From assembly GCF_015689195.1 (NCBI RefSeq), contig NZ_CP065044.1, forward strand, positions 3,100,001 through 3,164,000: a DNA stretch of 64,000 bases. Reading direction: 5' to 3'. This document shows, in pieces, positions 13,708-30,190 of the stretch. Position 1 is the stretch's first letter, and the number at the start of each line of letters is the position of its first letter. Made by a program: the position numbers and the translations under genes. Origin of the DNA: Pectobacterium aroidearum. GTDB taxonomy: Bacteria > Pseudomonadota > Gammaproteobacteria > Enterobacterales > Enterobacteriaceae. Below the pieces are notes generated by a model, which made no database searches, was not told the origin of the DNA, and worked only from the letters and a program-made list of their open reading frames with translations.

Positions 13708-13917
13708 ATGATTCGTTGCCATCTCGCTCGCCTTATGGGAAAGCGAAAAATGTAGATCTCCGATGTTTTGCGTGAAACAGACCTTAGCCGAAATACTGTG
13801 ACGCTAATGTATAAGGAGATGGCGCAGAAGATCGACATCGAGGCTTTGGATAAACTTTGTCGCCTATTTGAATGTGAAGTGGCTGATACGCTGGAGTTTA
13901 CGGATGAGCAAGGATAA
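13708..13917 (+). pseudogene. XRE-type HTH regulator interrupted by an in-frame amber codon
   Basis: Reading from ATG 13708 gives a 69-codon Cro/CI-like protein (YozG type): MIRCHLARLMGKRKM, stop TAG at 13753-13755, then ISDVLRETDLSRNTVTLMYK and the end FECEVADTLEFTDEQG with TAA at 13915-13917. Apart from the stop at codon 16 the domain is complete. Its end overlaps the start of the sigma-54 regulator by 14 nt, so the two genes would normally be translationally coupled. It may be inactive, re-started internally, or suppressed. Confidence 0.85.
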
Positions 13918-15403
13918 GCCCCATACGCTGGTCAGTTGGATTGGAGGGAACGACCTCAAAGCCACCGGCAGTTCTGAAGCCCATGGCCAAGCGCTTGGTC
14001 CGATTGCTGCGACGCTTATAGCGCAACCATTTGATACCGTAGAGCTGCTTTACAACTACCCGGAACATCAGGTGAAACCCTACTTGGCCTGGTTGCAGGG
14101 GCTAATTTCCACACCGATCCGTGCTCATTCTATTTCGCTCTCTTCGCCGGTAAACTTCGGTGAAATCTATCTCCAGGTCGATCTGCAACTATCCAGGCTT
14201 ACCGCAGAGGGAGCCGAGTTATTCCTCCTGTTAAGCCCTGGTACGCCAGCCATGCAGGCAGTGTGGATCTTACTGGGTAAGACCCGTTATCCCTGCCAGT
14301 TTTACCAATCATCCATTGAGCAGGGTGTCCAGCAAGTCGATATCCCCTTTGAGCTTTCCGCAGAATATCTGCCCGCCGCTAAAAATATCGGTAGTGAAAA
14401 GATTAGCCAACTAGCAAAAACCAGTCCCCCTATCAATGCGGCCTTTGACAATATTGTCACCCGAAATCCCCATATGCAGTATCTAAAAATGCAGGCACAA
14501 ATACTGGCAGAACGTGAGGTGCCAGTACTGATTTATGGGGAGACTGGTACAGGTAAAGAGCTCTTTGCCCGTGCTATTCATAATGCAAGTCATAGGGCCA
14601 GCAAGCCATTTGTGCCGGTTAACTGCGGCGCCATTCCAACCGAGCTGGTTGATTCAATCCTCTTCGGTCATAAGAAAGGTGCCTTCACTGGTGCCTTAGC
14701 CGACAAGGTTGGTTTATTCGAGCAAGCAAATGGCGGGACGCTTTTTCTGGATGAATTTGGCGAGTTGGAACCCAGTATACAAGTGCGTTTATTGCGCGTG
14801 TTGCAGGAAGGAACATTCATCCCTGTCGGCGGCATAAAAGAACAAAATGTCGACGTTCGCCTGATTACGGCGACTCACCGTAACCTGATGAGCGAAGTCG
14901 TCAATGGTAACTTTAGGGAAGATCTGTTCTACCGCGTCGCGGTTGGCGTGCTACATTTGCCGCCCCTGAGAGAACGTGCCGGGGATGTGTCACTACTAGC
15001 AGATAGTCTTGTTAACGCGATGAGTATCCATGATCCAATGCTTAGGCATAAAAAAATTTCTCCTGACGCAAAGAATCTTATCCTGCAATACGCTTGGCGA
15101 GGAAATGTGCGTGAATTGCAATCCACATTGTTACGCGCGGCTCTTTGGTGCCAAGGTGATAATATTACCGCCACGGATATCCGTCAGGCGATGTTTCATA
15201 TGCCAGAGCGAGAAACAAGACTGATGGAAAAAGATGTTTCACAAGGTGTTGATATACAGGAAATTATTGGAAATATTGCTGCAAATTATATCCGTAAAGC
15301 GTTGGAGCATAGCGGCCAGAACAAGACTAGGGCAGCAAAGCTACTGGGGTTGAAAAACTACCAAACACTGAATAATTGGATGGAAAAGTACGGTATTTCT
15401 TAG
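13904..15403 (+). CDS. Sigma-54-dependent activator with RtcR-like CARF sensor domain
   Basis: 499 residues from ATG 13904. Residues about 1-160 resemble the N-terminal CARF-type domain of RtcR: a strand ELFLLLSPGTPAMQAVWILL followed by YPCQFYQSS corresponds to the nucleotide-binding loop region. Residues about 185-425 are a bacterial enhancer-binding AAA+ domain with Walker A GETGTGK (212-218), the sigma-54 contact loop GAFTGA (259-264) and LFLDEFGEL as Walker B. The last 45 residues are a Fis-type HTH (NKTRAAKLLGLKNYQTLNNW). By family it should sense a nucleotide or RNA-end ligand and open a sigma-54 promoter. A near-perfect one lies 15 nt downstream, ahead of hsdR. Confidence 0.9.
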   Translation: MSKDKPHTLVSWIGGNDLKATGSSEAHGQALGPIAATLIAQPFDTVELLYNYPEHQVKPYLAWLQGLISTPIRAHSISLSSPVNFGEIYLQVDLQLSRLTAEGAELFLLLSPGTPAMQAVWILLGKTRYPCQFYQSSIEQGVQQVDIPFELSAEYLPAAKNIGSEKISQLAKTSPPINAAFDNIVTRNPHMQYLKMQAQILAEREVPVLIYGETGTGKELFARAIHNASHRASKPFVPVNCGAIPTELVDSILFGHKKGAFTGALADKVGLFEQANGGTLFLDEFGELEPSIQVRLLRVLQEGTFIPVGGIKEQNVDVRLITATHRNLMSEVVNGNFREDLFYRVAVGVLHLPPLRERAGDVSLLADSLVNAMSIHDPMLRHKKISPDAKNLILQYAWRGNVRELQSTLLRAALWCQGDNITATDIRQAMFHMPERETRLMEKDVSQGVDIQEIIGNIAANYIRKALEHSGQNKTRAAKLLGLKNYQTLNNWMEKYGIS

Positions 15404-15417
15404 TGTCTGAATAAACT

Positions 15418-15433
15418 TGGCACAACCTTTGCT
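15418..15433 (+). promoter_or_regulatory. Sigma-54 (-24/-12) promoter of the hsdR operon
   Basis: TGGCAC, five bases, TTGCT: all conserved positions of the sigma-54 consensus (GG at 15419-15420, GC at 15431-15432, 12 bp apart). The start point is expected near 15445, giving a short leader to the hsdR ATG at 15482. It lies directly after the gene for a sigma-54 activator on the same strand. Confidence 0.85.
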
Positions 15434-15481
15434 AAACATCATACATGTAGAGCGTGGGCCAGCAGGGGCATAAAAATTATT

Positions 15482-18400
15482 ATGAAATCAACTAATTTTG
15501 AATTCTTACGACCTGAGAACGATGTGCTTGCCAACCTCGGGGGTCTGGCCGAGGCGGTACTACATATTGATCCCGGCAGTACCCTCACCCGCCTACGTAG
15601 TTTTGCTGAAGAGCTGACCAAAGTCATTTATAAGGAAGAACGGCTGCCGCGCATGCCGCAATCCAGCTTCTATGAACTGACCAAAAGCCCGGTTTTCAAA
15701 AGCTGTGTCAGTAAATCGCTGATTAACCAAATCAATTTTTTGCGTATTCAAGGTAATGATACCGCTCATGGCGCAGAAGGCAATGTGCATAATGCTCAAA
15801 TGGCACTGGGTACTGCGTACCAGTTGGCCATGTATATGGGCGTTAAGTACTACAGTAAGAAAAAAGATCAGATTCCCGCGTTAGTCGAGGTAACAGACCC
15901 TACGGTAAGGCTAAATCAGCTACAAAAATCCGTTTCAAGCTACGAAAAAGAACTGCAAAAACAGCAGGAAGCACTCGAACGCGTGATGGAGCAATTGGAG
16001 CATGAGCGCACCAAAAATATCGATAAACTTGAGCTTCCTGCAACGTTGGACCGACAAAAACGCCAGCAGCAGAGTCAGCAAGTGGCCGACAGTCTGCAAT
16101 GGAACGAAGCCAAAACCCGTGCGCTATTGGTCGATACCATGCTGTTGCAAGCCGGTTGGGATATCCACAACCCTGAACAGGTTGGTCAGGAATTTGAAGT
16201 GATCTTTCCCAACAATCCCTCAGGCAAAGGTCGGGTGGATTACGTGCTATGGGGCGACAACGGTCACCCGCTTGCCGTTATCGAAGCGAAAAAATCGGGT
16301 AATACCAATCTGCAAGCCGGTCGAGAGCAGGCTCGTCTCTATGCTGATGCTTTTGAGCACATGGGCTACCAACGGCCAGTAATTTTCTATTCTAACGGCT
16401 ATGAAACCTTCATTTGGGACGATCATCAGTACAATACCTATCGCCCGGTGTATGGCTTCTACAGTAAGGACAGCTTGGACTATCTGATCTACCAACGCCA
16501 TTACCGCACCGCTGAATTGGAAAAATTCAACCCGGAGCTTAGCATTGCTGACCGCCCTTATCAGATCGAAGCCATTAAAACGGTCGCGGCCCACTTCCAG
16601 AACCAGCGCCGCAAGGCGTTGATTATTCAGGCGACCGGTACAGGAAAAACCCGTGTTGCCATTGCACTGGCTGAATTACTGCTTCGCACTGGCTGGGCCA
16701 AACGTGTTCTGTTTTTGTGTGACCGTAAAGAACTGCGAGTTCAGGCCGACGACGCTTTTAAGCAAAATCTGCCTTCAGAGCCACGCTGTGTGATTGGTGA
16801 AATCAACAAGATTGATAAAAGTGCTCGTATCTATATTGCCACTTACCCCGGCATGATGAACCGCTTCGCTCAACTAGATGTGGGCTTCTTTGATCTGATC
16901 ATTGCGGATGAATCCCATCGCAGTATCTACAACAAATACCGCGATCTGTTCGATTACTTCGATGCGCTACAAGTAGGCCTAACCGCGACCCCGGTGAAAT
17001 TTATCAGTCGCAATACGTTCGATATATTCGATTGTGAAACCACTGACCCAACGTTTGAATTCGGGCTGGATGCAGCGATTAACAACGAACCACCCTATTT
17101 GGTACCGTTCCGGGTTAAAGACCTCACCACCGACTTCCTGCGTGATGGTATCCACTACAATGACCTCACCGAAGAGCAGAAGCGCCAACTAGAAGAAGAT
17201 TTGGGCGATGAAGAAGCCCGTAATACCACGGTTGCAGGCAAAGATATTGGCCGTAAGATCTTCAGTGAAGATACGGACCGCATTATTCTGGAAAATCTGA
17301 TCAACAATGGCATCAAAGATGAAACCGGCTCGCTAGTCGGTAAAACCATTATCTTTGCCCAAAGTCAAGATCATGCCGAGCATCTGGAAAGACGGTTCTG
17401 CAAGCTGTACCCACAGTATGGTACTAAAGTGTGTAAGGTCATCCATAATAAGATTCCTCATGTAGGAAGCCTGATCAAAGAGTTCAAAAAAGCGGATAAT
17501 GCGTTTCGTATTGCGATATCGGTCGACATGCTCGATACGGGCATTGACGTGCCCGAAGTGGTCAATTTGGTGTTTGCTAAGCCTGTAAAAAGCTGGGTGA
17601 AATTTTGGCAGATGATTGGCAGAGGTACGCGCCTACGGCCCCATCTTTTCGGGCCTGACAAACACAAAACCGAATTCCTGATTTTTGACCATTACGGCAA
17701 CTTCGATTTCTTTGAAGAGGAATATCAGGAGCCAGAAAACACTGGCGGCAAATCCTTGCTGCAAACCACCTTCGAAGCCCGATTTGAGCTGGCTCAAGCT
17801 GCCTTACAACAAAACCATGCAGTAGCCTTCGATGCAGCGATTGAATTACTGCGTGCCGATATTAACGACCTGCCAGACACCAGTATTGCAGTAAAACGCG
17901 AATTACGGGTCGTACACCAGCTACAACAAACCGATTTACTGAAGCGCTTTGACGCTAAAACTCAGTATCTACTGGTCAGTAATATCGCACCATTAATGTC
18001 AGCCCGAGTGTTGCGTGACAAACATGCGATACAGTTGGACAAGCTTATCGCCAACTTAGAGCGTAATCTGGTAATGCAAGCCAGTGGCTTCGATGATGGT
18101 CGAGATCAGCTGTTGGCTGAACTTGATACGCTGGCTGTCAACATCCAGGCTGTGCGCCAGAAAGATGCTATCATCGCGGAAGTACGTAGTGCCGATTTCT
18201 GGCAAGATCCCACGATTGATAAGCTGGAAAAAGCCCGTAAAGAACTGCGCGGCATTATGAAATACCGCCGCAGCGGCAGCGGTGGTGTATATGCTATGCC
18301 AGCAACAAAAACAGGTGACTCAGGTCTGCAAGTAAAAGAGCGCGAGGCAATCTTCTCAGGTGCTAATGAGGCCATGATCTATCGCCGCAGACTCAAAGAT

Positions 18401-18853
18401 ATTCTGGATAAAATGATCGCAGTTAACCCCACGTTGCAGAAAATTCATAAAGGTGAACCCATTGCCGAGTCAGAGCTGATAACGCTTACCTCGACCATCC
18501 TTACTAGCCATCCGAGTGTGAGTTTGGAGGTACTGAATGAATTCTATGGCCGCACTGCTGATCAACTGCACCTGACGGTACGTGAGATTATAGGGCTGGA
18601 TCCGCAAGCCATTGAAGACCACTTCAAAGGTTTTCTGCACACCCATCCAGCACTCACCGCTAAGCAGGTACGCTTTATGAACTTGCTGAAGAACCATATC
18701 GCCCAGCACGGTTCTATCGTGATCGACACACTATACGAAAAACCTTTTATTTCCGTTTCGCATGAGGGTGTTGATGGAGTCTTCCCTCCCGGTGACGTCG
18801 ACGAATTGATAGCTGTCTTAGAGCCATTTTTGAAGCAGGAAGATGCCCGTTGA
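15482..18853 (+). CDS. hsdR: Type I restriction enzyme subunit R
   Basis: 1123 residues. It has an N-terminal DUF4145-like helical domain (about 20-125), a coiled coil (about 140-200), and a PD-(D/E)xK nuclease with D253, E268 and K270 (GRVDYVLW, AVIEAKKSG). An SF2 translocase follows: Walker A QATGTGKT near 383-390, motif II DESH 476-479, GLTATP, and QMIGRGTRLRP as motif VI. The C terminus is an EcoEI_R_C-like domain. All catalytic motifs are intact, so it should be active. It is first in the hsdRMS order and is served by the sigma-54 promoter. Confidence 0.96.
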   Translation: MKSTNFEFLRPENDVLANLGGLAEAVLHIDPGSTLTRLRSFAEELTKVIYKEERLPRMPQSSFYELTKSPVFKSCVSKSLINQINFLRIQGNDTAHGAEGNVHNAQMALGTAYQLAMYMGVKYYSKKKDQIPALVEVTDPTVRLNQLQKSVSSYEKELQKQQEALERVMEQLEHERTKNIDKLELPATLDRQKRQQQSQQVADSLQWNEAKTRALLVDTMLLQAGWDIHNPEQVGQEFEVIFPNNPSGKGRVDYVLWGDNGHPLAVIEAKKSGNTNLQAGREQARLYADAFEHMGYQRPVIFYSNGYETFIWDDHQYNTYRPVYGFYSKDSLDYLIYQRHYRTAELEKFNPELSIADRPYQIEAIKTVAAHFQNQRRKALIIQATGTGKTRVAIALAELLLRTGWAKRVLFLCDRKELRVQADDAFKQNLPSEPRCVIGEINKIDKSARIYIATYPGMMNRFAQLDVGFFDLIIADESHRSIYNKYRDLFDYFDALQVGLTATPVKFISRNTFDIFDCETTDPTFEFGLDAAINNEPPYLVPFRVKDLTTDFLRDGIHYNDLTEEQKRQLEEDLGDEEARNTTVAGKDIGRKIFSEDTDRIILENLINNGIKDETGSLVGKTIIFAQSQDHAEHLERRFCKLYPQYGTKVCKVIHNKIPHVGSLIKEFKKADNAFRIAISVDMLDTGIDVPEVVNLVFAKPVKSWVKFWQMIGRGTRLRPHLFGPDKHKTEFLIFDHYGNFDFFEEEYQEPENTGGKSLLQTTFEARFELAQAALQQNHAVAFDAAIELLRADINDLPDTSIAVKRELRVVHQLQQTDLLKRFDAKTQYLLVSNIAPLMSARVLRDKHAIQLDKLIANLERNLVMQASGFDDGRDQLLAELDTLAVNIQAVRQKDAIIAEVRSADFWQDPTIDKLEKARKELRGIMKYRRSGSGGVYAMPATKTGDSGLQVKEREAIFSGANEAMIYRRRLKDILDKMIAVNPTLQKIHKGEPIAESELITLTSTILTSHPSVSLEVLNEFYGRTADQLHLTVREIIGLDPQAIEDHFKGFLHTHPALTAKQVRFMNLLKNHIAQHGSIVIDTLYEKPFISVSHEGVDGVFPPGDVDELIAVLEPFLKQEDAR

Positions 18854-18884: not shown

Positions 18885-18901
18885 GAGAGACGCAGTCTCT
18901 C
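18885..18901 (+). other. Intercistronic hairpin between hsdR and hsdM
   Basis: GAGAGAC, loop GCA, GTCTCTC: a perfect 7-bp stem in the 119-nt gap between hsdR and hsdM, with no T-tract. It could be an RNA processing or attenuation site that sets the R:M ratio. Confidence 0.5.
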
Positions 18902-18972: not shown

Positions 18973-20577
18973 ATGCTAACAGGTCAAATACGTAACGATA
19001 TCGACAAACTCTGGGAAAAATTCTGGACTGGCGGTATCACCAACCCCTTAACGGTTATTGAGCAAATCAGCTACCTGATGTTTGCCCGTATGCTCGACAT
19101 GCAGGAAGACCTGGCCGAGCGTAAAGCAAGCCGTACCAGTAAAGACTTTGATCGCCTGTTCCCTAATACACCCGCGGGGCAGTTGCTGCGTTGGAAAAAC
19201 TTTAAAAACCTCAGCGGTAAAGAACTGCACAAGCATCTTAAGGAAAACGTTTTCCCTTATTTTGCTAAACTTGGCAAGAAATCTGATGAGCAAGATGGTT
19301 TAGGCCACAGCGGCAGTGCCATCAAAGCCCTGGGACATATTGGCGAATATATGCAAGATGCCGATCTTGAAATTAAAAACGAATCGGTACTGGTCAGCGC
19401 GGTGGAGATGGTGGATGCATTACCACTGACTCAAAACGATATAAAAGGCGATATTTACGAATACCTGCTCAGCAAACTGACCACCGCCGGTATCAATGGC
19501 CAATTCCGTACTCCACGTCATATTATCGATGCCATGATCGAACTGGCAGCTCCTCAGCCCACTGAAACGATCTGTGACCCGGCCTGCGGTACCGCCGGAT
19601 TTCTCGCCCGCACCATGGAATACCTAAACCGTGTACATTCCAGTAAGGCCGGTGTTTTTGCAGACGAAGAAGGCAACAAGTACTATTCTGGTGACCTGTT
19701 AGAGCCTTACCGAAACCATATCAACAAACAGATGTTCTGGGGCTTCGATTTCGACACCACGATGCTGCGCGTCAGCAGTATGAATATGGCGTTGCACGGG
19801 GTAAATGGGGCCAATATTCTCTATCAGGACAGTTTGAGTAAATCAATTAAAGAAAACTTTCCTCAGCAGGAAGAAAACTTCTTCGATGTGATACTTGCCA
19901 ACCCGCCCTTCAAAGGTAGCCTGGACGAAACCAACACCAACCCCGATGTGCTGGGCCTGGTAAAAACCAAAAAAACTGAACTGCTATTTGTTGCCCATAT
20001 TCTGCGAGCACTTAAGCTCGGTGGTCGCGCCGCCGTTATCGTGCCCGATGGCGTGTTATTCGGCTCTAGCAATGCCCACCAACAACTGCGCAAAGAACTA
20101 ATCGAAAATAACCAGCTTGAAGGTATTGTTAGCCTGCCTAGTGGAGTGTTTAAACCCTATGCTGGTGTCAGCACCGCCATTCTGATGTTTACCAAAGGGG
20201 GGGCTACTGACCGGGTCTGGTTCTATGACCTGCAGGCTGACGGTTATTCATTAGACGATAAGCGCACACCGCTGAAAGGCAAAGATGGCAACGACCTACC
20301 CGATGCTATCGCTAAGTGGAAGCAATATTGTGCTTTGGTGCAGAAGAATGCCTCTGCCCAAGAGATCCACAGCACCTTTGGTGATAAAACGCAAAAGGCC
20401 TTCGTGGTGGATGTCAAAGATATTGCCACCAACAAATTTGATCTCTCTATCAACCGCTACAAAGAAGTGGTGTATGCAGAAGAAGCGTTTGAGGACCCAA
20501 AGAAGATTCTGCAAAAGCTGAAAGCGCTGGAAAGCGAGATTATGGCGGATCTGGATGAGTTGGAGGAGATGCTATGA
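18973..20577 (+). CDS. hsdM: Type I restriction-modification DNA methyltransferase subunit M
   Basis: 534 residues. An N-terminal HsdM helical domain (NDIDKLWEKFWTGGI) precedes an adenine-N6 methyltransferase core with the SAM motif DPACGTAGFL and catalytic NPPF (ILANPPFKGS). A long insertion before motif IV is usual in the family. With HsdS it methylates the recognition site, and with HsdR it restricts. Its stop overlaps the hsdS start by 4 nt (ATGA), so the two are coupled. Confidence 0.96.
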   Translation: MLTGQIRNDIDKLWEKFWTGGITNPLTVIEQISYLMFARMLDMQEDLAERKASRTSKDFDRLFPNTPAGQLLRWKNFKNLSGKELHKHLKENVFPYFAKLGKKSDEQDGLGHSGSAIKALGHIGEYMQDADLEIKNESVLVSAVEMVDALPLTQNDIKGDIYEYLLSKLTTAGINGQFRTPRHIIDAMIELAAPQPTETICDPACGTAGFLARTMEYLNRVHSSKAGVFADEEGNKYYSGDLLEPYRNHINKQMFWGFDFDTTMLRVSSMNMALHGVNGANILYQDSLSKSIKENFPQQEENFFDVILANPPFKGSLDETNTNPDVLGLVKTKKTELLFVAHILRALKLGGRAAVIVPDGVLFGSSNAHQQLRKELIENNQLEGIVSLPSGVFKPYAGVSTAILMFTKGGATDRVWFYDLQADGYSLDDKRTPLKGKDGNDLPDAIAKWKQYCALVQKNASAQEIHSTFGDKTQKAFVVDVKDIATNKFDLSINRYKEVVYAEEAFEDPKKILQKLKALESEIMADLDELEEML

Positions 20578-21623
20578 GTTGGCCTACAGTGAGTCTTAAA
20601 GATATTGCTGTCGCTCATTACGGCAAAGCGCTTAAAAAAGAACATAGGGATGATACGGGCAATTACATCGTTTACGGTAGCTCGGGTGAAGTGGGCAAGC
20701 ACTGCGATTATGTGGCAGATTTTCCGACATTAATCATCGGGCGTAAGGGCTCTGTCGGCGAGGTGGTTTGGGCACCAAAGGGGGGGTGGATCATTGATAC
20801 TGCGTTTTATTTGGAGTTATTTGATTGTGAGACAGTTGATCTTCGCTATTTGTTCTATTCTTTGAAACGAGCAAACTTAGTTTCGAAGACAATTACTACA
20901 TCAATTCCTGGACTGAACAGAGATGATTTGTACTGTACACAAATCCCCCTCCCTCCCTTAAACGAACAAAAACGCATCGCTGCCATTCTCGATAAAGTAG
21001 ATGCTATCCGACGTAAGCGCAAGCAAGCCATCCAGCTTGCCAATGACTTTCTGCGTGCTGTTTTTCTGAATATGTTTGGTGATCCAAACAGCAACAGTAA
21101 GAATGCTCATGTTATACCAATGACGGAAGTCTTTAGCATCAGAACAGGTAGTCTGAATTCTAATGCTGCGGTAGTGGGAGGTAAGTATCCTTTCTTCACT
21201 TGCGCAAAAGAGGTGTTTGCAATTGATGACTATGCCTTCAATCAAGAAGCTCTGCTACTAGCTGGAAATAATGCTCAAGCTGATTATGACGTGAAACATT
21301 ACAAAGGAAAATTCAATGCCTACCAACGGACATATGTGCTTACTCTTCGAAACCTAAACTGGAGTTATCCTTTCTATAAATTCGCACTGGAATACCAACT
21401 GTCGAACTTAAAAAGGATATCCAAAGGATCGAATACAAAATACATCACAATGGAGATAATGAGCAGAACAATGCTTCCTGTACCAAATGAGTTGGAGCAA
21501 CGATCATTTGTTCAATATTTTAATAACATCAAAAAATTCCTTGCTTTTTCAGAGAAATATGAGGATGAAAGTGAAAACTTATTTACATCCTCAAACCAAA
21601 AAGCCTTTCGAGGTGAACTGTGA
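20574..21623 (+). CDS. hsdS: Type I restriction-modification specificity subunit S
   Basis: 349 residues with two target-recognition domains. TRD1 (about 1-125) ends in the conserved QIPLPPLNEQKRIAAILDKV helix start. TRD2 (about 175-300) ends in a divergent MLPVPNELEQRSF. The protein is rather short compared with the usual 400-450, mainly through a compact second half. The DNA site cannot be read from sequence. A 44-nt gap leads to the next gene on the same strand. Confidence 0.93.
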   Translation: MSWPTVSLKDIAVAHYGKALKKEHRDDTGNYIVYGSSGEVGKHCDYVADFPTLIIGRKGSVGEVVWAPKGGWIIDTAFYLELFDCETVDLRYLFYSLKRANLVSKTITTSIPGLNRDDLYCTQIPLPPLNEQKRIAAILDKVDAIRRKRKQAIQLANDFLRAVFLNMFGDPNSNSKNAHVIPMTEVFSIRTGSLNSNAAVVGGKYPFFTCAKEVFAIDDYAFNQEALLLAGNNAQADYDVKHYKGKFNAYQRTYVLTLRNLNWSYPFYKFALEYQLSNLKRISKGSNTKYITMEIMSRTMLPVPNELEQRSFVQYFNNIKKFLAFSEKYEDESENLFTSSNQKAFRGEL

Positions 21624-21667: not shown

Positions 21668-24600
21668 ATGGACTTATTTGACCCGCTAACAATTCAGCTA
21701 ACCTTACCCACAAAGGCTGCACCTACTAGCAAAGTGGGTGGAAATTTTGTGCACAAACTGCTTTTCAGAGCAACGAAAGTTGAATCTCAAGTCAGACATG
21801 CAGATTTTCCAGGATATCTTGAGCTTGTTACGGGTTTACCTGCTCCTTTGGATTGCATTTATCTGAAAGATCCCAATACCAGGGGTAAATGTCCGGATGG
21901 TTTGGCTTCTCTCAAAGCTAAAGAACCGTTTACCTTTGAAGATTGGCAGGAAGGTATCCAACTAAGTTGGGAGCAATTCCCGGAGCAGGCATTTAGCAAG
22001 GAGCCAGAGGAAATTAACCGACTTTGGCATAATCAATTTCAGTTTAAAGAAGAAGATACTGAACACGACTTTCCAGGACTCCGAAAACCTCAACTAGGCG
22101 CGCTTCATGCCATCGCAGGCTATTTTGCTACTGATTTACAAGTAGAACCGGCAACTGTTGTTTTGCCTACAGGAACGGGGAAAACGGAAACAATGCTGGC
22201 CACTATGGTTTATCAGCGGTGTGGGAAAATTCTGGTTATCGTTCCATCTGATTCCCTGCGGTCGCAAATATCCAAAAAATTTATTGAATTTGGGTATTTA
22301 CCAGAGCTCACTGTCGTTCCCTTCAATATTGCACTCCCTAACGTCGCTATTATTAAAAAGGGAATTCAAACGGTTGAAGAGGCTGAACAGTTAGTCGGCA
22401 CGTCCAATGTTTTAGTTGCAACGACCAGCGTATTATCTGCCTGCTCCGAAGATGCGTTAAATACACTTTGTGGCTCGTGTACCCATCTTTTTATTGATGA
22501 AGCTCATCATATATCAGCATCATCCTGGCTGGCTATTCGTGAGCGATTTAGAGATAAGCATGTAATACAGTTTACCGCAACCCCGTTCAGAAATGATAAG
22601 AAGTCCCTTGGTGGGAAAATTATCTATAACTACACTATGGGGGAAGCTCAGCGAGCAGGTTATTTTACAAATGTGAATTTGTTGCCTGTAGAAGAGTACT
22701 ACTCCGATCTTGTAGACCACGCAATCGCAGAGATGGCTATAGGTCAACTGCGTGCGGATTTGAATAATGGTCTAGACCACTTACTCATGGCTCGCACAAG
22801 CAATAAGCATCGGGCAGAAGAGCTTGTTATTACATATCAGAGAATTGCATCGGAATTTAACCCAATTATTGTTCATTCTGATTATTCTAAAACTGAGGTA
22901 AGAAACCGCCTTGATGCATTGCTGGTGAGACAATCCAGAATCGTTATTTGCGTAGATATGCTGGGTGAAGGCTACGATCTACCCAACTTAAAAATTGCCG
23001 CCTTACATGATCATCATAAGTCTCTTGCAGTAACTCTCCAGTTCATTGGCCGCTTTACACGCGTAAACCGAGCTCAAAATCTCGGGCAAGCGAGTGTCGT
23101 AATGAATGTTGCAGATCCTAATGTCGAAGGTGAGCTACAACACCTTTATTCAACAGACGCCGATTGGGATAGCGTACTGAGGCGACTCTCAGAAGGAAGA
23201 ATTGCAAGGGAGATTCGACTGCAAGAGGTCGTGGATGCCTTAAAAAGAGAAGGGGATTTGCATGACCAGATTTCCCTTTGGAACCTTGAGCCAAGCTGTT
23301 CAGTTATGTTATTCAAGACCTCTTGCGACCAGTGGGAACCGAAAAGGTACGAAGAAAAACTTCCCAAATTCGATGAATCCTGGCACGCAATAGCAGATGA
23401 TGAGAATTTGCTTGTAGTGTTAGCTGTTCAGACATCCGCCGTCCGATGGGGAAGCTACAAAGATCTCAAAGATACGAACTACAAGATTTTAATTGCGCAT
23501 TGGGACCCCGATAGATCTGCCTTATTTGTATTTTCAAATGACTACAAAGCATTTCGAGTGGAAAATTTAGTCAGCGCTATATGCGACGATAATGTTGAAC
23601 TCGTCAGTGGCGACAAGGTATTCAACGTGTTTAACGGTATTGAATACCCCTTGGCAAGAAATCTTGGGGCATCCCAGATCGGAGCTATCAGTTTTACTCA
23701 ATACTTTGGCCCAAATGTTACCGAAGGGCTTTCATTGATTGAAGCATCACAATCCAGCCTGAGTAATATTGCCGCCCTCGGTTATGAATCAGGGAATCGC
23801 GTAATCTGGGGATGCTCACAGCGTAGAGGCAAAGTCTGGTCACCACAAAAAGGTGGCAGCATTACTGATTGGTGCGACTGGGTTAAGAAAGCCTGGGATA
23901 AGATCTTCAGCTCCGAACCTGACCCAAATAACCTGACGCGTAATTTTTTGCGTCCTGTCCCATTGCTTGCCCCTTATGAGTCGTATCCGATATCAGCGCA
24001 ATGGGGCGAGTATTTGCTTACTGCGTTTGAGGATAAAGTCGATTTTCACTTTGGTGCTGTAGTAGCTCATCTGTACCTGGTGGAAGTCAGGGCTGCTGGC
24101 AAGTTTGATGATGGCAGTGTGAGACTCATATTCTCTACAGATACGGTTGAATCCGAATACAAGCTTTGTCTTTCAAAAAATACGACATCCAAAGGTTATG
24201 ATTATCAGCTGATATCAGGCCCTGAAGTCTTCGTACAACGAGGTACATCTGATCCGTTGTCACTCGCCGAATACATGAAAATTGATCCAGTGATGATTCA
24301 TTACGCTGATGGTTCATTTTCATACAATGCGCATATAGTCCATGTAAGCCAAAATATTGGCCTTTATGATAGAAAAGAGATTGTCGCTTTCGACTGGCAT
24401 GGGACAGATATTAGAATCGAGTCCATGGGATATGGACGTGATCAAGCTTCGATCCAATGGCGTTGGTTCAATGAAATCCAAGAAGATTACGATGTCATTG
24501 TTAACGATGATGGAAAAGGTGAGTCAGCTGATTTAGTTGGTTTAAAAATCCTTGATGACGGTATTGTGCTAACCTTAATTCATTGCAAATACTCAGGCTC

Positions 24601-24949
24601 AGATGAGCCAGGGGCCAGACTTAAAGACCTCTACGAAGTATGTGGTCAGGCACAGAGGTGTATTCGTTGGAAACACCTTAATCTTACCTATTTATATCAC
24701 CATATTAAGCGTCGTGAGGAACAATGGCGTTCGCGTGGCTATTCTCGTTTCTTAAAGGGTACTATTAAGGAGCTGGCTGCTATGAAAGAACGTGCTAGGA
24801 CAACCCCTATTAGATTCAATGTCATAATTGTTCAGCCAGGCCTTGATGCTAATCAAATTAATGAAGAAGGTCTGAAATTACTTGGTAGTACCGCTCTTTT
24901 TATCAAGAAAACAACCATGGCTAATTTAGCAGTTATTGGTTCAGAATAA
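21668..24949 (+). CDS. DEAD/DEAH helicase fused to a putative nuclease domain (defence-associated)
   Basis: 1093 residues. An SF2 helicase core has Walker A PTGTGKT (166-173 region), DEAH in FIDEAHHIS (277-280), FTATPFRND as motif III and QFIGRFTRVNR as motif VI. The last 170 residues include ESADLVGLKI and LTLIHCKYSG, the order of a PD-(D/E)xK-type site with the acidic residue of the third strand replaced by His-Cys before Lys. A nuclease role is therefore an inference. It begins 44 nt after hsdS and ends 15 nt before an AAA ATPase, forming a second three-gene module. I cannot name the system. Confidence 0.82.
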   Translation: MDLFDPLTIQLTLPTKAAPTSKVGGNFVHKLLFRATKVESQVRHADFPGYLELVTGLPAPLDCIYLKDPNTRGKCPDGLASLKAKEPFTFEDWQEGIQLSWEQFPEQAFSKEPEEINRLWHNQFQFKEEDTEHDFPGLRKPQLGALHAIAGYFATDLQVEPATVVLPTGTGKTETMLATMVYQRCGKILVIVPSDSLRSQISKKFIEFGYLPELTVVPFNIALPNVAIIKKGIQTVEEAEQLVGTSNVLVATTSVLSACSEDALNTLCGSCTHLFIDEAHHISASSWLAIRERFRDKHVIQFTATPFRNDKKSLGGKIIYNYTMGEAQRAGYFTNVNLLPVEEYYSDLVDHAIAEMAIGQLRADLNNGLDHLLMARTSNKHRAEELVITYQRIASEFNPIIVHSDYSKTEVRNRLDALLVRQSRIVICVDMLGEGYDLPNLKIAALHDHHKSLAVTLQFIGRFTRVNRAQNLGQASVVMNVADPNVEGELQHLYSTDADWDSVLRRLSEGRIAREIRLQEVVDALKREGDLHDQISLWNLEPSCSVMLFKTSCDQWEPKRYEEKLPKFDESWHAIADDENLLVVLAVQTSAVRWGSYKDLKDTNYKILIAHWDPDRSALFVFSNDYKAFRVENLVSAICDDNVELVSGDKVFNVFNGIEYPLARNLGASQIGAISFTQYFGPNVTEGLSLIEASQSSLSNIAALGYESGNRVIWGCSQRRGKVWSPQKGGSITDWCDWVKKAWDKIFSSEPDPNNLTRNFLRPVPLLAPYESYPISAQWGEYLLTAFEDKVDFHFGAVVAHLYLVEVRAAGKFDDGSVRLIFSTDTVESEYKLCLSKNTTSKGYDYQLISGPEVFVQRGTSDPLSLAEYMKIDPVMIHYADGSFSYNAHIVHVSQNIGLYDRKEIVAFDWHGTDIRIESMGYGRDQASIQWRWFNEIQEDYDVIVNDDGKGESADLVGLKILDDGIVLTLIHCKYSGSDEPGARLKDLYEVCGQAQRCIRWKHLNLTYLYHHIKRREEQWRSRGYSRFLKGTIKELAAMKERARTTPIRFNVIIVQPGLDANQINEEGLKLLGSTALFIKKTTMANLAVIGSE

Positions 24950-24964
24950 CTTAGAGGCTAGATT

Positions 24965-26608
24965 ATGAGAATAACTAAAATATCACTGACAAATTTCCGT
25001 TCCTTTAAAGAAACACAAACAATCGATATTGCACCAGTGACACTTTTGTTTGGTCCAAATAGTGTTGGTAAGAGCTCTATATTAATGGCACTCGCTTATG
25101 TACAGCAGATTCTGAAGCAAGGGCATTGCAACCCGCAAAAGCTAGATGCCCTAGGTAACAAAACAATAGGTGGTTTTCGTGCACTTGTTCACGGGCAGGA
25201 CCTAACGAAAACTATTCGAATTCGGCTGGATTATTCGCCGGATAAAACGCCGTTTGTATACTATGGTTCGGATGTCGATGCGATGACAAACCATATTCAA
25301 TACGCCCACTATGTTTTGATGAATGACTTCGGCGGCAGCATCGAATCTGGAACGGTTGAGTTCGAGATTGCATGGTCAGAGCGTTTCAAGCGGGCTTATG
25401 TAAAAAATTACCGAGTTTGGGCTAATGATGTATACGTGGGCTGTGTCAATTCTTCTGAGGATCTGAAAAACACTCTGGTTCAGGAGCTTAATACTCAGCA
25501 TCCTCTACTTATCCCCTATAACAATGAAGACTGGCTTGAGAGCGAGTATGGAGAAGCTGAGGGTAGAGAACCTCTGGAGCTGGACGAATATCATACGGAA
25601 TTTGAGCAGGTTCTGAACCAGTTGAACCCAAACCCAGCTTCAACTGCTACTGTAGCAGATAAAGACAATTCGGGAACTGACTTCGTAAACCGCATTGCTC
25701 CTATTGCATTAGCCTGTCGAAGTGGTGCAATCCCTTTACTTGGAACCCCTGTTGTTACCAATTTGTCTGGACAGGATTTTGATGAATTTGATGAGCACTT
25801 TAATTTTCTTGTAGTTCAGGAGATATTGAGTCAGGTTTTCGTATTACCCCTTGATATGCTAATGAAATATCTAAGCAAAAGTGTTCAGATTGGCCCAATT
25901 CGCTTAGTGCCAGATAACGATTATGTGCCTAACCCCCATCCAGAACAAAGGGACTGGGTAGATGGTTCAGCAGCTTGGGATTTACTGTACAAAGATCCCA
26001 ACAGTGATAGCACTATCCGAAAGCTGCTCGGAAGCACTAGTGACTGGTTTGCATCAAGCAACAAACTTGATGCAGGCTACGAAATCATCAACCGCTCTAT
26101 TGCTGAGAGTACAAATATCGATAGTACTGATGAGCATATGGGGCTACTCAATAAGCGGCATGTTTTCTTTAGAGAACTTCGTAGTAATATTCTACTGTCA
26201 GCAAACCAATTGGGTACTGGTATTTCTCAGGTTCTTCCGATAGTTGTTGCGGCAAATTATGATGACATTGCACTTATAAGCGTTGAACAGCCTGAATTAC
26301 ATATTCATCCCCGCATTCAAGTAGAAATTGCAGAAGTTTTTCTTCATGCGAAGGATAAACACTCCTTTCTAATCGAAACACACAGTGAGCATTTGATTCT
26401 TCGACTTTTAAAAAGAATAAGACAGACAACAGATAATGAACTCCCTGATGGTTCTAAGCCTATACGAGGAGAAGATGTATCAATCATTTACTTGGAACCT
26501 ACAGAGAACGGTGTTTTGACAAAGAGAATTTGCGTGGATGAGGATGGAGAATTTGTTGAACGTTGGCCTCAAGGCTTCTTTGTTGAGCGTCGAGAGGAGC
26601 TTATATAA
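24965..26608 (+). CDS. AAA ATPase of the SMC/OLD-like ABC type
   Basis: 547 residues. Walker A is FGPNSVGKSSIL (about 29-40), the signature-like region is LSANQLGTGISQVLPI, Walker B is ISVEQPELHIHP and the H-loop is LIETHSEHLILRLL. This is the layout of DUF3696/OLD-like ATPases found in many anti-phage systems, where they pair with an effector. No TOPRIM nuclease is attached, unlike OLD/GajA. The stop overlaps the next start (TAATG), so it is coupled to the PLD-like gene. Confidence 0.85.
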   Translation: MRITKISLTNFRSFKETQTIDIAPVTLLFGPNSVGKSSILMALAYVQQILKQGHCNPQKLDALGNKTIGGFRALVHGQDLTKTIRIRLDYSPDKTPFVYYGSDVDAMTNHIQYAHYVLMNDFGGSIESGTVEFEIAWSERFKRAYVKNYRVWANDVYVGCVNSSEDLKNTLVQELNTQHPLLIPYNNEDWLESEYGEAEGREPLELDEYHTEFEQVLNQLNPNPASTATVADKDNSGTDFVNRIAPIALACRSGAIPLLGTPVVTNLSGQDFDEFDEHFNFLVVQEILSQVFVLPLDMLMKYLSKSVQIGPIRLVPDNDYVPNPHPEQRDWVDGSAAWDLLYKDPNSDSTIRKLLGSTSDWFASSNKLDAGYEIINRSIAESTNIDSTDEHMGLLNKRHVFFRELRSNILLSANQLGTGISQVLPIVVAANYDDIALISVEQPELHIHPRIQVEIAEVFLHAKDKHSFLIETHSEHLILRLLKRIRQTTDNELPDGSKPIRGEDVSIIYLEPTENGVLTKRICVDEDGEFVERWPQGFFVERREELI

Positions 26609-27534
26609 TGATTTACGAATACGCACTTGATCCTAACGTTTTATATTCATGGGCAACGAATGAACGTGATTATGCCGAGTTCCTCAGAGAATATGGATTA
26701 GGTACACCTCGTATTATCAGCAGCTTCCCAAAGGAAAAAAAATCCAAACTTCGCAGCTACTTGCTCCAGTATAGCCCTGATGATACCCAATCGTTAACGG
26801 CCCAGAGATACACTGAAATGGTTATCAATATCTTGAATTCGATTGTAGTTCGGGAAGTTCAGGATCATGAAGTTACCAATTGGCAGGAGGCCGCTGTTAT
26901 TGAAAATAGGAGGATTCCTTTCGGTGTGATTTTGTCATCAATGGAGATTGAAGAAAACAACAATATCACAATAAGTTCCATGTACTCCCAAAGCAGTATA
27001 TGGAATCATCCAGGTCAATTAGTTATTTCACGCACGAATGCAGAGTTGTTCTCTATCGTTTCAAATTTAGTATGCCTAGCGGAGAATAAAATTGTCATTA
27101 TTGATCCCTATGGTTGGACAACTGAGGCAGTGAGATTTATCCGATTTATGCTTCAATCTATTCCTCGCAATCGAGTTGTCAGTAACTTCCCGATAATAAT
27201 GCTATTTTACAAGGAAAAGAGAGGCAGTGAGAATGGTGGTAGAGGAAGTCCATCTGCTGGCCACGTTAGGCTTCAGATTATACAAGGTTTGATAGATGAT
27301 TTGCCGAATCTACAGGTTCAAGTTTTTGAGCTAAGGGAGAGAGGTGATGCTGATGTCTTTCATAATCGATGCATTTTGACCGAACATGGCGGGATAATTA
27401 CTGGCCACGGCATTAGTGTATCTGGCGAAGAGTCTCATACCGATGAGGCTATTTTGATGAGTTCAGATATCTATCAGAAAAAATGGCAACAATTTGTAGA
27501 GCAAAATTGCTACGAAGTGGCCTCAGAAGCGTAA
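26608..27534 (+). CDS. Putative PLD-like effector of the helicase-ATPase module
   Basis: 308 residues. The C-terminal half contains IIDPYGWTTEAVRFI and then VFHNRCILTEHGGIITGHGI. The pattern FHxR(x)LT...G followed by a short glycine-rich turn resembles degenerate phospholipase-D/MIT-type domains, in which HxK becomes HxR. The N-terminal 140 residues are unlike anything I recognise (IPFGVILSS, WNHPGQLVISRTN). If catalytic it may be a nuclease; otherwise a regulator. It is the last gene of the same-strand run and a hairpin follows its stop. Confidence 0.65.
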   Translation: MIYEYALDPNVLYSWATNERDYAEFLREYGLGTPRIISSFPKEKKSKLRSYLLQYSPDDTQSLTAQRYTEMVINILNSIVVREVQDHEVTNWQEAAVIENRRIPFGVILSSMEIEENNNITISSMYSQSSIWNHPGQLVISRTNAELFSIVSNLVCLAENKIVIIDPYGWTTEAVRFIRFMLQSIPRNRVVSNFPIIMLFYKEKRGSENGGRGSPSAGHVRLQIIQGLIDDLPNLQVQVFELRERGDADVFHNRCILTEHGGIITGHGISVSGEESHTDEAILMSSDIYQKKWQQFVEQNCYEVASEA

Positions 27535-28494: not shown

Positions 28495-29289
28495 ATGAGC
28501 ATACGTCAGGCATGCAGGACGTTATCGTTGAGCAGGACGGTGTTTTTATACCAGCCAGATACCCGGCGTGATGAATCGGTGATCCAGGGGCTGCTAGTGA
28601 TGGCTGAACGCTATCCACGATACGGATTTAAGAAGCTTTTTCAGGTATTGCGCAGGCAGGGGAATACCTGGAATCACAAGCGTGTTCACCGAATTTACTG
28701 TCTTCTGAAACTGAATTTTCGTCGCAAAGGAAAGCAACGTCTGCCGGTGCGTAATCCGGCTCCACTGGCGACCCCAGAGGCGCTGAACCAGAGCTGGTCC
28801 ATCGATTTTATGCACGACGCGCTGGTCTGCGGCAGACGCTTCAGAACCTTCAATGTGGTGGATGATTTTAACCGGGAAGCCCTGGCCATTGAAATTGACC
28901 TGAATATCCCGGCCCAGCGTGTTGTCCGGGTACTGGATAGGATCGTGGCAAACCGTGGATATCCGCTGAAGATGAGGATGGATAATGGGCCAGAACTTAT
29001 ATCGCTGGCGCTGGCTCAATGGGCCGAAGAGCATGGCGTGATGCTGGACTTTATCAAGCCGGGTAAACCGACGCAAAACGCATTTATCGAACGCTTTAAC
29101 CGGACGTACCGGACCGAAATACTGGATTTTTATCTGTTCAGAACACTGAATGAAGCACGGGAAATTACAGAGCGCTGGCTGGCTGAATATAACGGTGAGC
29201 GGCCCCATGAATCCCTGAATAACCTGACGCCGGAAGAGTACCGTCTGATGGCTGAAAACCCGGAAATCTCAAAAAGTGCGTGGAACTAA
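28495..29289 (+). CDS. IS3-family transposase OrfB (DDE integrase core)
   Basis: 264 residues in the -1 frame relative to orfA. The frame is open from the slippery site, so the active OrfAB fusion would add about 17 residues before this start. It has an N-terminal HTH_21 region (YPRYGFKKLFQVLRRQG) and the rve core with DDE residues in SIDFMHD, MRMDNGPEL and FIERFNRTYR. All three catalytic residues are present, so it should be functional. Confidence 0.93.
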   Translation: MSIRQACRTLSLSRTVFLYQPDTRRDESVIQGLLVMAERYPRYGFKKLFQVLRRQGNTWNHKRVHRIYCLLKLNFRRKGKQRLPVRNPAPLATPEALNQSWSIDFMHDALVCGRRFRTFNVVDDFNREALAIEIDLNIPAQRVVRVLDRIVANRGYPLKMRMDNGPELISLALAQWAEEHGVMLDFIKPGKPTQNAFIERFNRTYRTEILDFYLFRTLNEAREITERWLAEYNGERPHESLNNLTPEEYRLMAENPEISKSAWN

Positions 29290-30190
29290 AACGGGTGTGC
29301 TTACAGGTGTAGCGTTTAGCCTGAAGGTAGATCGAGTCGAGGCCCAACCGGTCCTCCTTGATGATACCGTCTATTCCTCCATCGCTCTGATAGCGAGTCG
29401 TCTGGGCAGCATCCTGCTGACTTCCACCATACCCCATAGCTACCATTAGATCGACCACTAGCAGTTCGAAAAAGCGGGGTGATGTGGAGAGTATTTCGGC
29501 CAGCAAATCATCGGAAAGCGATTGATTGATGGCTGCAAGCGCCTGTTCTATCTGCTCTTGCGGAGTATTAGCTTGCTCGGTGACTGATTGGTATGTTTCA
29601 CCAGTCACGGCTTGTGGGGTGTTTCCTGTGCTTTCACTGGAAGCCAAGGTAAAGGCGACGAATTCCTGAAACTGGCCAAGATAGTGGTTGTCAATAGTGT
29701 GGCCTGATGCTAGCGCTGTCTTACCCCGTTCAGTTATAAGACAGATGCCTCGTTTGGGCTGCTCGATCAACCCCGCCTTAACAAGATAGGTTTTAGCCCA
29801 GCCAACTCGTGAGCGGATCGTAGTTTGACGCCCGCTTGGCAAAGTTTCAGCGAGTTGCTCTGGGGTAAAGGCATAATGCTGGCAAACAAGCCCGAATACC
29901 TCTCTCAGAGCACGCATGGCCCCATCAGCCAATACTTTAAGTACTACTGGCATCATAGATTCATAGCTGGGTAGATTTTCTTTCATCGAGCGACCAAAGC
30001 TTGAAAAAACAGAGAGATATTATATTGCCATACGGTTCTAGCTGGAACCAGTTGGTTTTACGGATTCTGATATCATCAGAAGCAGAACAAAGGGAAGATA
30101 ACAAATGCTCTTCCCCACAACCTACCACTAACCAAGAAAATATATAATCAGGAAGTTATCGTAACCGAATGTGCTTCCACCTATGATATA

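Follow-up and report, generated by a model that had tools for sequence, protein, structure and literature searches.

Restriction is usually taught as always on. Can a type I restriction operon instead be held back until a sensor encoded at its head detects a signal? This question is raised by a 64-kb stretch of the Pectobacterium aroidearum genome (NZ_CP065044.1, positions 3,100,001 to 3,164,000, hereafter the window; the genome is a single contig of 5.0 Mb). Here, an RtcR-like gene at 13904–15403 is followed on the same (+) strand by hsdR (15482–18853, 1123 amino acids), hsdM (18973–20577, 534 amino acids) and hsdS (20574–21623, 349 amino acids), each identified by profile matches. With HsdR, HsdM and HsdS within one locus, type I restriction-modification (RM) activity is predicted. 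That the regulator senses through a CARF domain, works as an enhancer-binding protein for sigma-54 and is dedicated to the adjoining type I operon is, in our estimate, about 85% probable. Of this full switch model, the analysis shows the protein family and fold, the gene order, and the conservation of the promoter and of two sites inside the activator gene; binding to DNA, the nature of the signal, the point where transcription begins and any increase in restriction are inferred.

The switch itself has been predicted before. In the passages concerned, Makarova et al. (2014) describe RtcR-like proteins with NtrC-like AAA+ and helix-turn-helix (HTH) domains as often associated with RM systems, and as likely sigma-54-dependent activators of downstream genes that might control DNA restriction by sensing infection ligands (PMC4012209). 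A 2024 paper on CoCoNuT systems extends the idea, describing superoperons that begin with an RtcR homolog and may contain type I RM (PMC11090510). An earlier reading of this stretch from its letters alone (the sequence-only reading) knew of no described type I system controlled in this way, which is true of experiments in the literature searched but not of the idea. That literature, in the text available, reports no experiments on type I systems with a CARF activator and does not describe the promoter, enhancer or translation start of one, and this anatomy has apparently not been predicted before.

The activator and the promoter behind it

The frame at 13904–15403 is open and encodes 499 amino acids, with GAFTGA, Walker A (GETGTGKE) and Walker B (LFLDE) motifs in its translation and profile scores of 223 bits against PF00158 and 23.6 bits against PF02954. 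It combines an AAA+ sigma-54 interaction domain bearing GAFTGA and the Walker motifs with a Fis-type HTH, as an enhancer-binding protein does. The PADLOC model RtcR_PspF2--CARF_AAA_HTH (PDLC01995) matches it over its full length (residues 7–498, 708 bits). Assignment as an RtcR equivalog was rejected at 319.6 bits against the 650-bit cut-off of NCBIfam RtcR (NF038308); a true RtcR is encoded in the same genome, where it scores 839.7 bits on that model and adjoins RtcB. By its profile scores, the activator is RtcR-like and not RtcR. No place covering 80% of the activator gene was found in any of 5,426 E. coli genomes, and the 15 matches listed, of 48, were glrR.

A model of the N-terminal domain built from 50 relatives has CARF topology, a Rossmann-like fold with a strand 5–6 hairpin. 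Its best structural matches in the PDB are Csm6 CARF domains and other CARF proteins, and its profile aligns over 94% (E 9e-8) with this genome's true RtcR. A sequence search of the PDB gave nothing convincing (two matches at E 0.79). The sequence-only reading had described an RtcR-like sensor joined to an AAA+ domain with an intact GAFTGA loop, and a CARF-like N domain; the open frame, motifs and PADLOC match bear out the one, and the fold and profile match the other.

Directly past the activator stop, TGGCACAACCTTTGCT (15418–15433, + strand) is the sole exact match to TGGCAC-N5-TTGCW on either strand of the 64 kb. With GG at −25/−24, GC at −13/−12, the right spacing and conservation across relatives, it is a predicted sigma-54 promoter. 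The TGGCAC-N5-TTGCT element had been placed here by the sequence-only reading, correctly; 48 bases separate it from the hsdR ATG at 15482. Setting the C of the −12 GC at −12 puts the predicted transcription start at 15444 (+ strand), where about 15445 had been proposed, and at a fixed distance from an in-frame ATG in relatives. Matches to the consensus with up to two mismatches are at chance level in the window (37 versus 41 expected), and the case for the promoter therefore rests on conservation.

Genome contigs were scanned using only the CARF domain, which yielded 82 loci (numbered with L below); the best 80 were kept and 77 scored, three (L026, L077, L091) being dropped for a regulator frame that was shortened or reached the contig end. 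Among the 80 is L025, from Pectobacterium sp. PL152 and near-identical to the window at this locus. We found a sigma-54 element within 60 nucleotides (nt) of the activator stop in 66 of 77 loci, against 0.45 in shuffles, and in all 54 loci in which hsdR comes next; where present, it starts 0–25 nt past the stop. The same scan detected no element after hsdR (0/54), hsdM (0/52) or hsdS (0/46), and one upstream of hsdM (1/52). Plasmid-borne relatives carry the element in five of seven cases (four of six without L148, whose stretch closely resembles the already used L053), and the two without it carry a VWA-PP2C-kinase module. A further set of stronger CARF-activator loci, leaving out five weaker ones (L015, L016, L022–L024), has the element in 6 of 10, among them L010, which is the same locus as L025.

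Searching from HsdR rather than from the activator, we examined 25 matches in 369 genomes: 4 have the site, 19 do not and 2 were unscorable. The four are the window, two loci with an activator, and L116. Among the 19, L135 and L138 have a nearby activator, and in both the extrapolated hsdR start is wrong; L138 has a 0.96 site after the activator stop and L135 has none. Conservation of the site in relatives thus supports the sequence-only proposal that an activator-dependent sigma-54 promoter fronts hsdR. Among the results that would refute it, that reading had named the absence of a conserved −24/−12 site upstream of hsdR in homologous loci, and this did not occur.

Candidate control sites within the activator gene

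Classical sigma-54 control regions have an upstream activator sequence (UAS), an integration host factor (IHF) site and the promoter, in this order. Because the promoter starts 0–25 nt after the activator stop, an enhancer at the usual distance must sit within the activator coding sequence. We therefore compared synonymous codons among 35 dereplicated activators (496 distant pairs, 303 windows), these being the 40 hsdR-type activators left after dereplication minus an outlying five (L073, L074, L082, L092, L102). Two regions stand out, each with z about 8. A peak at the gene start was put down to an alignment-edge effect and rejected.

One constrained region reads CAAGG(T/C)(A/G)TTGAT, with the GAT codon kept in 35/35 activators and the CAA codon in 33/35, and we take it to be the opposite-strand reading of the IHF consensus WATCAANNNNTTR. 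The window copy, CAAGGTGTTGAT (15242–15253, + strand), is centred at about −197. Such a site occurs in 46 of 55 hsdR-type genes versus 6.2 in synonymous shuffles (34 versus 4.1 in a strict form), and in the 37 genes where the strict form served for placement its centre lies 185–207 nt upstream of the predicted start.

The other constrained region is an imperfect dyad, TAAgAAAaTTTC...GCAAAaAAtcTTAT, found in the window at 15049–15081 (+ strand), about 380 nt upstream (approximately −395 to −363 from the predicted +1). Of the 55 hsdR-type genes, 41 have both halves, where synonymous shuffles give 1.1; the dyad is seen more weakly in non-hsdR genes (5/23 versus 0.45), and one longer variant of the pattern gave no matches. 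Searching the 5.0-Mb genome with a dyad consensus derived from these loci, the window included, returned one copy without mismatch and four with two or three mismatches, and the same search run backward as a control returned five matches in all. A second pattern search of this genome gave one site with one mismatch, level with its control. As a positive control, the rtcB promoter of the same genome has a −24/−12 site (0.91) and an IHF-type match, without the activator-gene dyad. The dyad is likely to be the enhancer, judging from its constraint and position, and dyad, IHF-type site and promoter would together form a complete sigma-54 control region. Candidate control sites lying within the activator gene itself are apparently new.

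The hsdR start codon and a repeat over the −12 region

Taking the −12 C as reference, we numbered the predicted hsdR mRNA in 54 sequences, the window included (one hsdR-type locus, L068, was left unscored). The first in-frame ATG falls at nt 2 in 41 of them, and an in-frame ATG at nt 2–4 in 50, with another ATG shortly before it in three of these. Four sequences depart from the pattern: the window and L025, where hsdR starts at nt 39, and L100 and L073. The window does have an ATG at nt 2, but TAG comes directly after it, and the hsdR start lies at 15482. The five codons after the nt-2 ATG look translated, because they vary most in the third base (39 loci, 25 distinct sequences) and read mostly M-D/N/E/S-R/K-I. 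A Shine-Dalgarno-like motif lies between +1 and the second ATG in 1 of 39 loci; just ahead of the first ATG, before +1 and so on read-through RNA only, one lies in 22 of 39. Since the ATG is at nt 2–4 in 50 of 54, we predict that the hsdR message is leaderless in relatives, the window excepted, which is apparently new. A link between leaderless mRNA and MazF "stress ribosomes" is contested, in the portion of the literature concerned (PMC9031893), and is not used as evidence here.

In relatives an inverted repeat spans this region, its 5' arm reaching into the −12 element and its 3' arm being the region before the first ATG. The arms differ across loci yet match each other: among 45 distinct promoters of 55, the mean stem score is 14.1 versus 11.0 (sd 0.38) with halves swapped, and 30 of 45 score at least 13 versus 12.7, at most 20, in swaps. 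This cut was chosen after the scores had been seen, and the sequences are related, so that shuffle counts are not probabilities. Among the 42 promoters that align without gaps (34 of them distinct), covariation comes to 0.363 versus 0.214; none of 500 shuffles reaches it, and sliding yields no more than 0.229. Two of five covariation measures fall within shuffles (both-side pair changes, 193/500; further pair types, 95/500), RNAalifold predicted no consensus pair for the 42 aligned promoters, and 9 of the 34 distinct promoters form four or fewer of the eight named pairs. The named-helix count and the swap null nevertheless support a predicted helix in relatives.

The window lacks this helix. 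Its own minimum-free-energy fold instead contains a possible read-through stem between CCUUUGCU (15426–15433), a 5' arm lying before +1, and the Shine-Dalgarno-like AGCAGGGG (15461–15468; stem 15426–15468, + strand). All eight pairs form in the best fold, as in 91 of 2000 shuffles, and the overall stability of the fold does not exceed that of shuffles (z −0.36), so that a −12/AGCAGGGG stem is only tentatively suggested. In relatives, the inverted repeat could hide the hsdR ribosome site on read-through RNA only, which is apparently new. We tentatively suggest, as a possibility that we hold to be less probable than its negation, that the same DNA has a double role, as the −12 part of a promoter and, in read-through RNA, as the arm hiding the hsdR ribosome site. 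HsdM and HsdS could then always be made from read-through RNA, and HsdR only from the sigma-54 start, which lies past the 5' arm and would give a message that is leaderless in relatives and unmasked in the window. A hairpin before hsdR is one possible answer to how the chromosome is protected.

A second hairpin, before hsdM, was proposed by the sequence-only reading to help balance expression. The hairpin exists (18885–18901) but is not conserved, and it was rejected: outside the window the same sequence turns up in the near-identical L025 alone, and in 50 loci hairpins before hsdM are about as strong as those of shuffled sequence (median score 16 versus 14, same 90th percentile).

The switch model, its rivals and its setting

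In the model we favour, the CARF domain would keep the AAA+ ring inactive when there is no signal, and the promoter past the activator stop would be silent. A ligand, most likely a nucleic-acid fragment from infection or damage (for example RNA ending in a 2',3'-cyclic phosphate), would bind the CARF domain, and the activated protein would assemble on the dyad enhancer within its own gene. IHF would bend the DNA between dyad and promoter, and sigma-54 polymerase would start at about 15444 and transcribe hsdR, probably with hsdM-hsdS behind it. Co-transcription of hsdM is probable because, among 50 loci examined, 40 have hsdM starting within 60 nt of the preceding frame or overlapping it; the window has a gap of 119 nt. 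By analogy with the RtcR ligand, 5' tRNA halves ending in 2',3'-cyclic phosphate would be the first candidates, going by the relevant part of that work (PMC7790460); tRNA fragments were insufficient for RtcR activation in vitro, as given in the corresponding part of another study (PMC9650030).

Several points weigh against this model. The −24/−12 consensus used for scoring and the IHF consensus are both taken as general background, and the weights and cut-off of the promoter score were our own choice. The element is missing in 11 of the 77 scored loci (L030, L046, L066, L076, L085, L087, L088, L089, L090, L098, L103), none of which has a detected hsdR next. Among other, unrelated enhancer-binding proteins of the same genome, of which 7 of 11 matches were scanned, one of seven has a site after its stop (0.87). 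Non-hsdR activator genes show no enrichment of the IHF-type site (5/23 versus 2.0, shuffle maximum 6), and the two-half dyad pattern is absent from 14 of the 55 genes of hsdR type. L116 (1280–1500) keeps the promoter, inverted repeat and hsdR with no activator detected upstream; its promoter is possibly an orphan, and the sequence ahead of it looks like a short C-terminal activator remnant.

A real sigma-54 promoter could also merely boost genes that are usefully made from an ordinary promoter, by read-through or from within the operon. EcoKI-type systems are constitutive, HsdM should already be there when restriction starts, the genes run one way, and no terminator-like site was listed on the + strand from activator to hsdR, in a scan whose count was at chance (6 versus 6.6 expected). 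Sigma-70-like sites between 13300 and 19200 are at chance too (7 versus 8.2), which neither shows nor excludes a promoter, and read-through RNA could fold a stem ahead of hsdR in 30 of 45 distinct promoters, with covariation, so that we regard constitutive production as the less probable account, if one to be taken seriously. The repeat on which this argument draws might itself be a DNA operator for a repressor, as it overlaps the promoter and a few loci have a small HTH-like gene upstream. Its arms vary by locus and covary with G-U type changes, which suits pairing over a fixed operator, and the HTH-like frame is found upstream in only 9 of 78 loci; we think an operator improbable.

The signal, in turn, might be a cyclic oligonucleotide, as for the CARF domains of Csm6 and Can2, and not broken RNA, as for RtcR. 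The Csm6 structures matching the N domain include complexes with cyclic hexa-adenylate or an analogue, and the PADLOC Csx1/Csm6 model matches residues 7–144 (E 3e-4), but a shared fold does not reveal a ligand. Oligoadenylates did not activate E. coli RtcR in the experiments covered by the text concerned (PMC9650030), and we consider such a signal unlikely here. When this genome was searched for the Cas10 palm, five weak matches came up, of which two just passed the cut-off; the family also matches the E. coli control. Finally, an ordinary type I operon might lie beside an unrelated activator by chance, and a lone 16-mer match would be weak evidence to the contrary; with 54 of 54 hsdR-next loci having the element against a null mean of 0.45 over all 77, plus two constrained sites, we give this reading almost no weight. 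We thus retain the CARF-sensing sigma-54 switch.

EcoKI-type hsdRMS operons have the R-M-S order and an hsdR promoter of their own, as does the window; we know of no sigma-54 dependence of the EcoKI-type hsdR promoter. The RtcR/rtcBA system, in the part of its description used here, has a UAS and an IHF site (PMC9650030). It shares with the window a CARF-AAA+-HTH activator, a sigma-54 promoter and both kinds of site, which are candidates here. By contrast, the window activator precedes hsdR and not rtcBA and falls short of the RtcR model (320 of 650 bits), its promoter follows it in the same direction with the candidate control sites inside the activator gene, and its dyad was not seen at the rtcB promoter. 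The RtcR-like CARF-NtrC activators of Makarova et al. have the same proposed role in the passages concerned, to which we add an analysis of promoter, enhancer and translation start (PMC4012209); we infer that they and PADLOC RtcR_PspF2 are one family. CoCoNuT superoperons, as far as the text available describes them, likewise start with a CARF activator, which is followed by type I RM and further defence genes (PMC11090510). In contrast to them, no CoCoNuT part is among the PADLOC matches listed for eight window proteins (the best 25 for some), and the position of the promoter is given here and checked in many loci. RptR, from islands of type I RM, is also a head gene controlling type I RM transcription, but it is a 79-residue repressor, and neither CARF nor RtcR occurs in the available text of that paper (PMC12255303).

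Other features of the family and the neighbourhood can be set beside these results. The CARF activator family also precedes VWA-(PP2C)-kinase-MkoA-like and MoxR-VWA modules (L046, L149, L151, L069); the element right after the activator stop is missing in L046, L149 and L151 and present in L069. L046, the only element-less locus of the eleven whose neighbours were scanned, has a VWA, kinase and MkoA-like set next. In L030 (11464–11600) an hsdR-like start lies behind a site with an altered −24 (score 0.77) with no hsdR frame detected, possibly a relic. Upstream of the window activator, 13708–13917 (+ strand) is a small HTH-like frame with an in-frame TAG at 13753–13755 (codon 16); the start at 13708 given by the sequence-only reading belongs to this separate frame. 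The same open piece stands behind a stop in L025, and the frames are open in L027, L029, L036 and L082.

Between hsdR and hsdM, where the window has its 119-nt gap, relatives carry an RmuC-domain gene or a YhcG nuclease (L029:14961–16886, L032:14907–17042, L071:14945–16666, L081:14875–15936). ShdA of Shield, named in the portion of the CoCoNuT paper concerned, is offered as a comparison for the RmuC-domain genes (PMC11090510). Downstream of hsdS and in the same direction, 21668–27534 encodes a helicase, an AAA_15 ATPase and a protein without a family match, possibly in the same operon. Beyond them, 28495–29986 holds frames that we take to resemble an IS3-type transposase and, on the opposite strand, a truncated Mrr-like restriction protein, and 30191–64000 presumably an integrase-like frame, a long block like an integrative element, and further defence-like genes.

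In this locus and dozens of related ones, a CARF sensor working through sigma-54 appears to turn type I restriction on. The 2014 prediction thereby becomes a precise one, with a predicted start site, a candidate enhancer and an IHF-type site. These loci suggest how a cell could keep methylation ready while the nuclease is held back. If the double role of the −12 region is true, modification would always be made and restriction only on demand, with hsdR perhaps readable even when normal initiation is damaged. The locus also offers a reporter for finding the ligand of the RtcR_PspF2-type CARF family.

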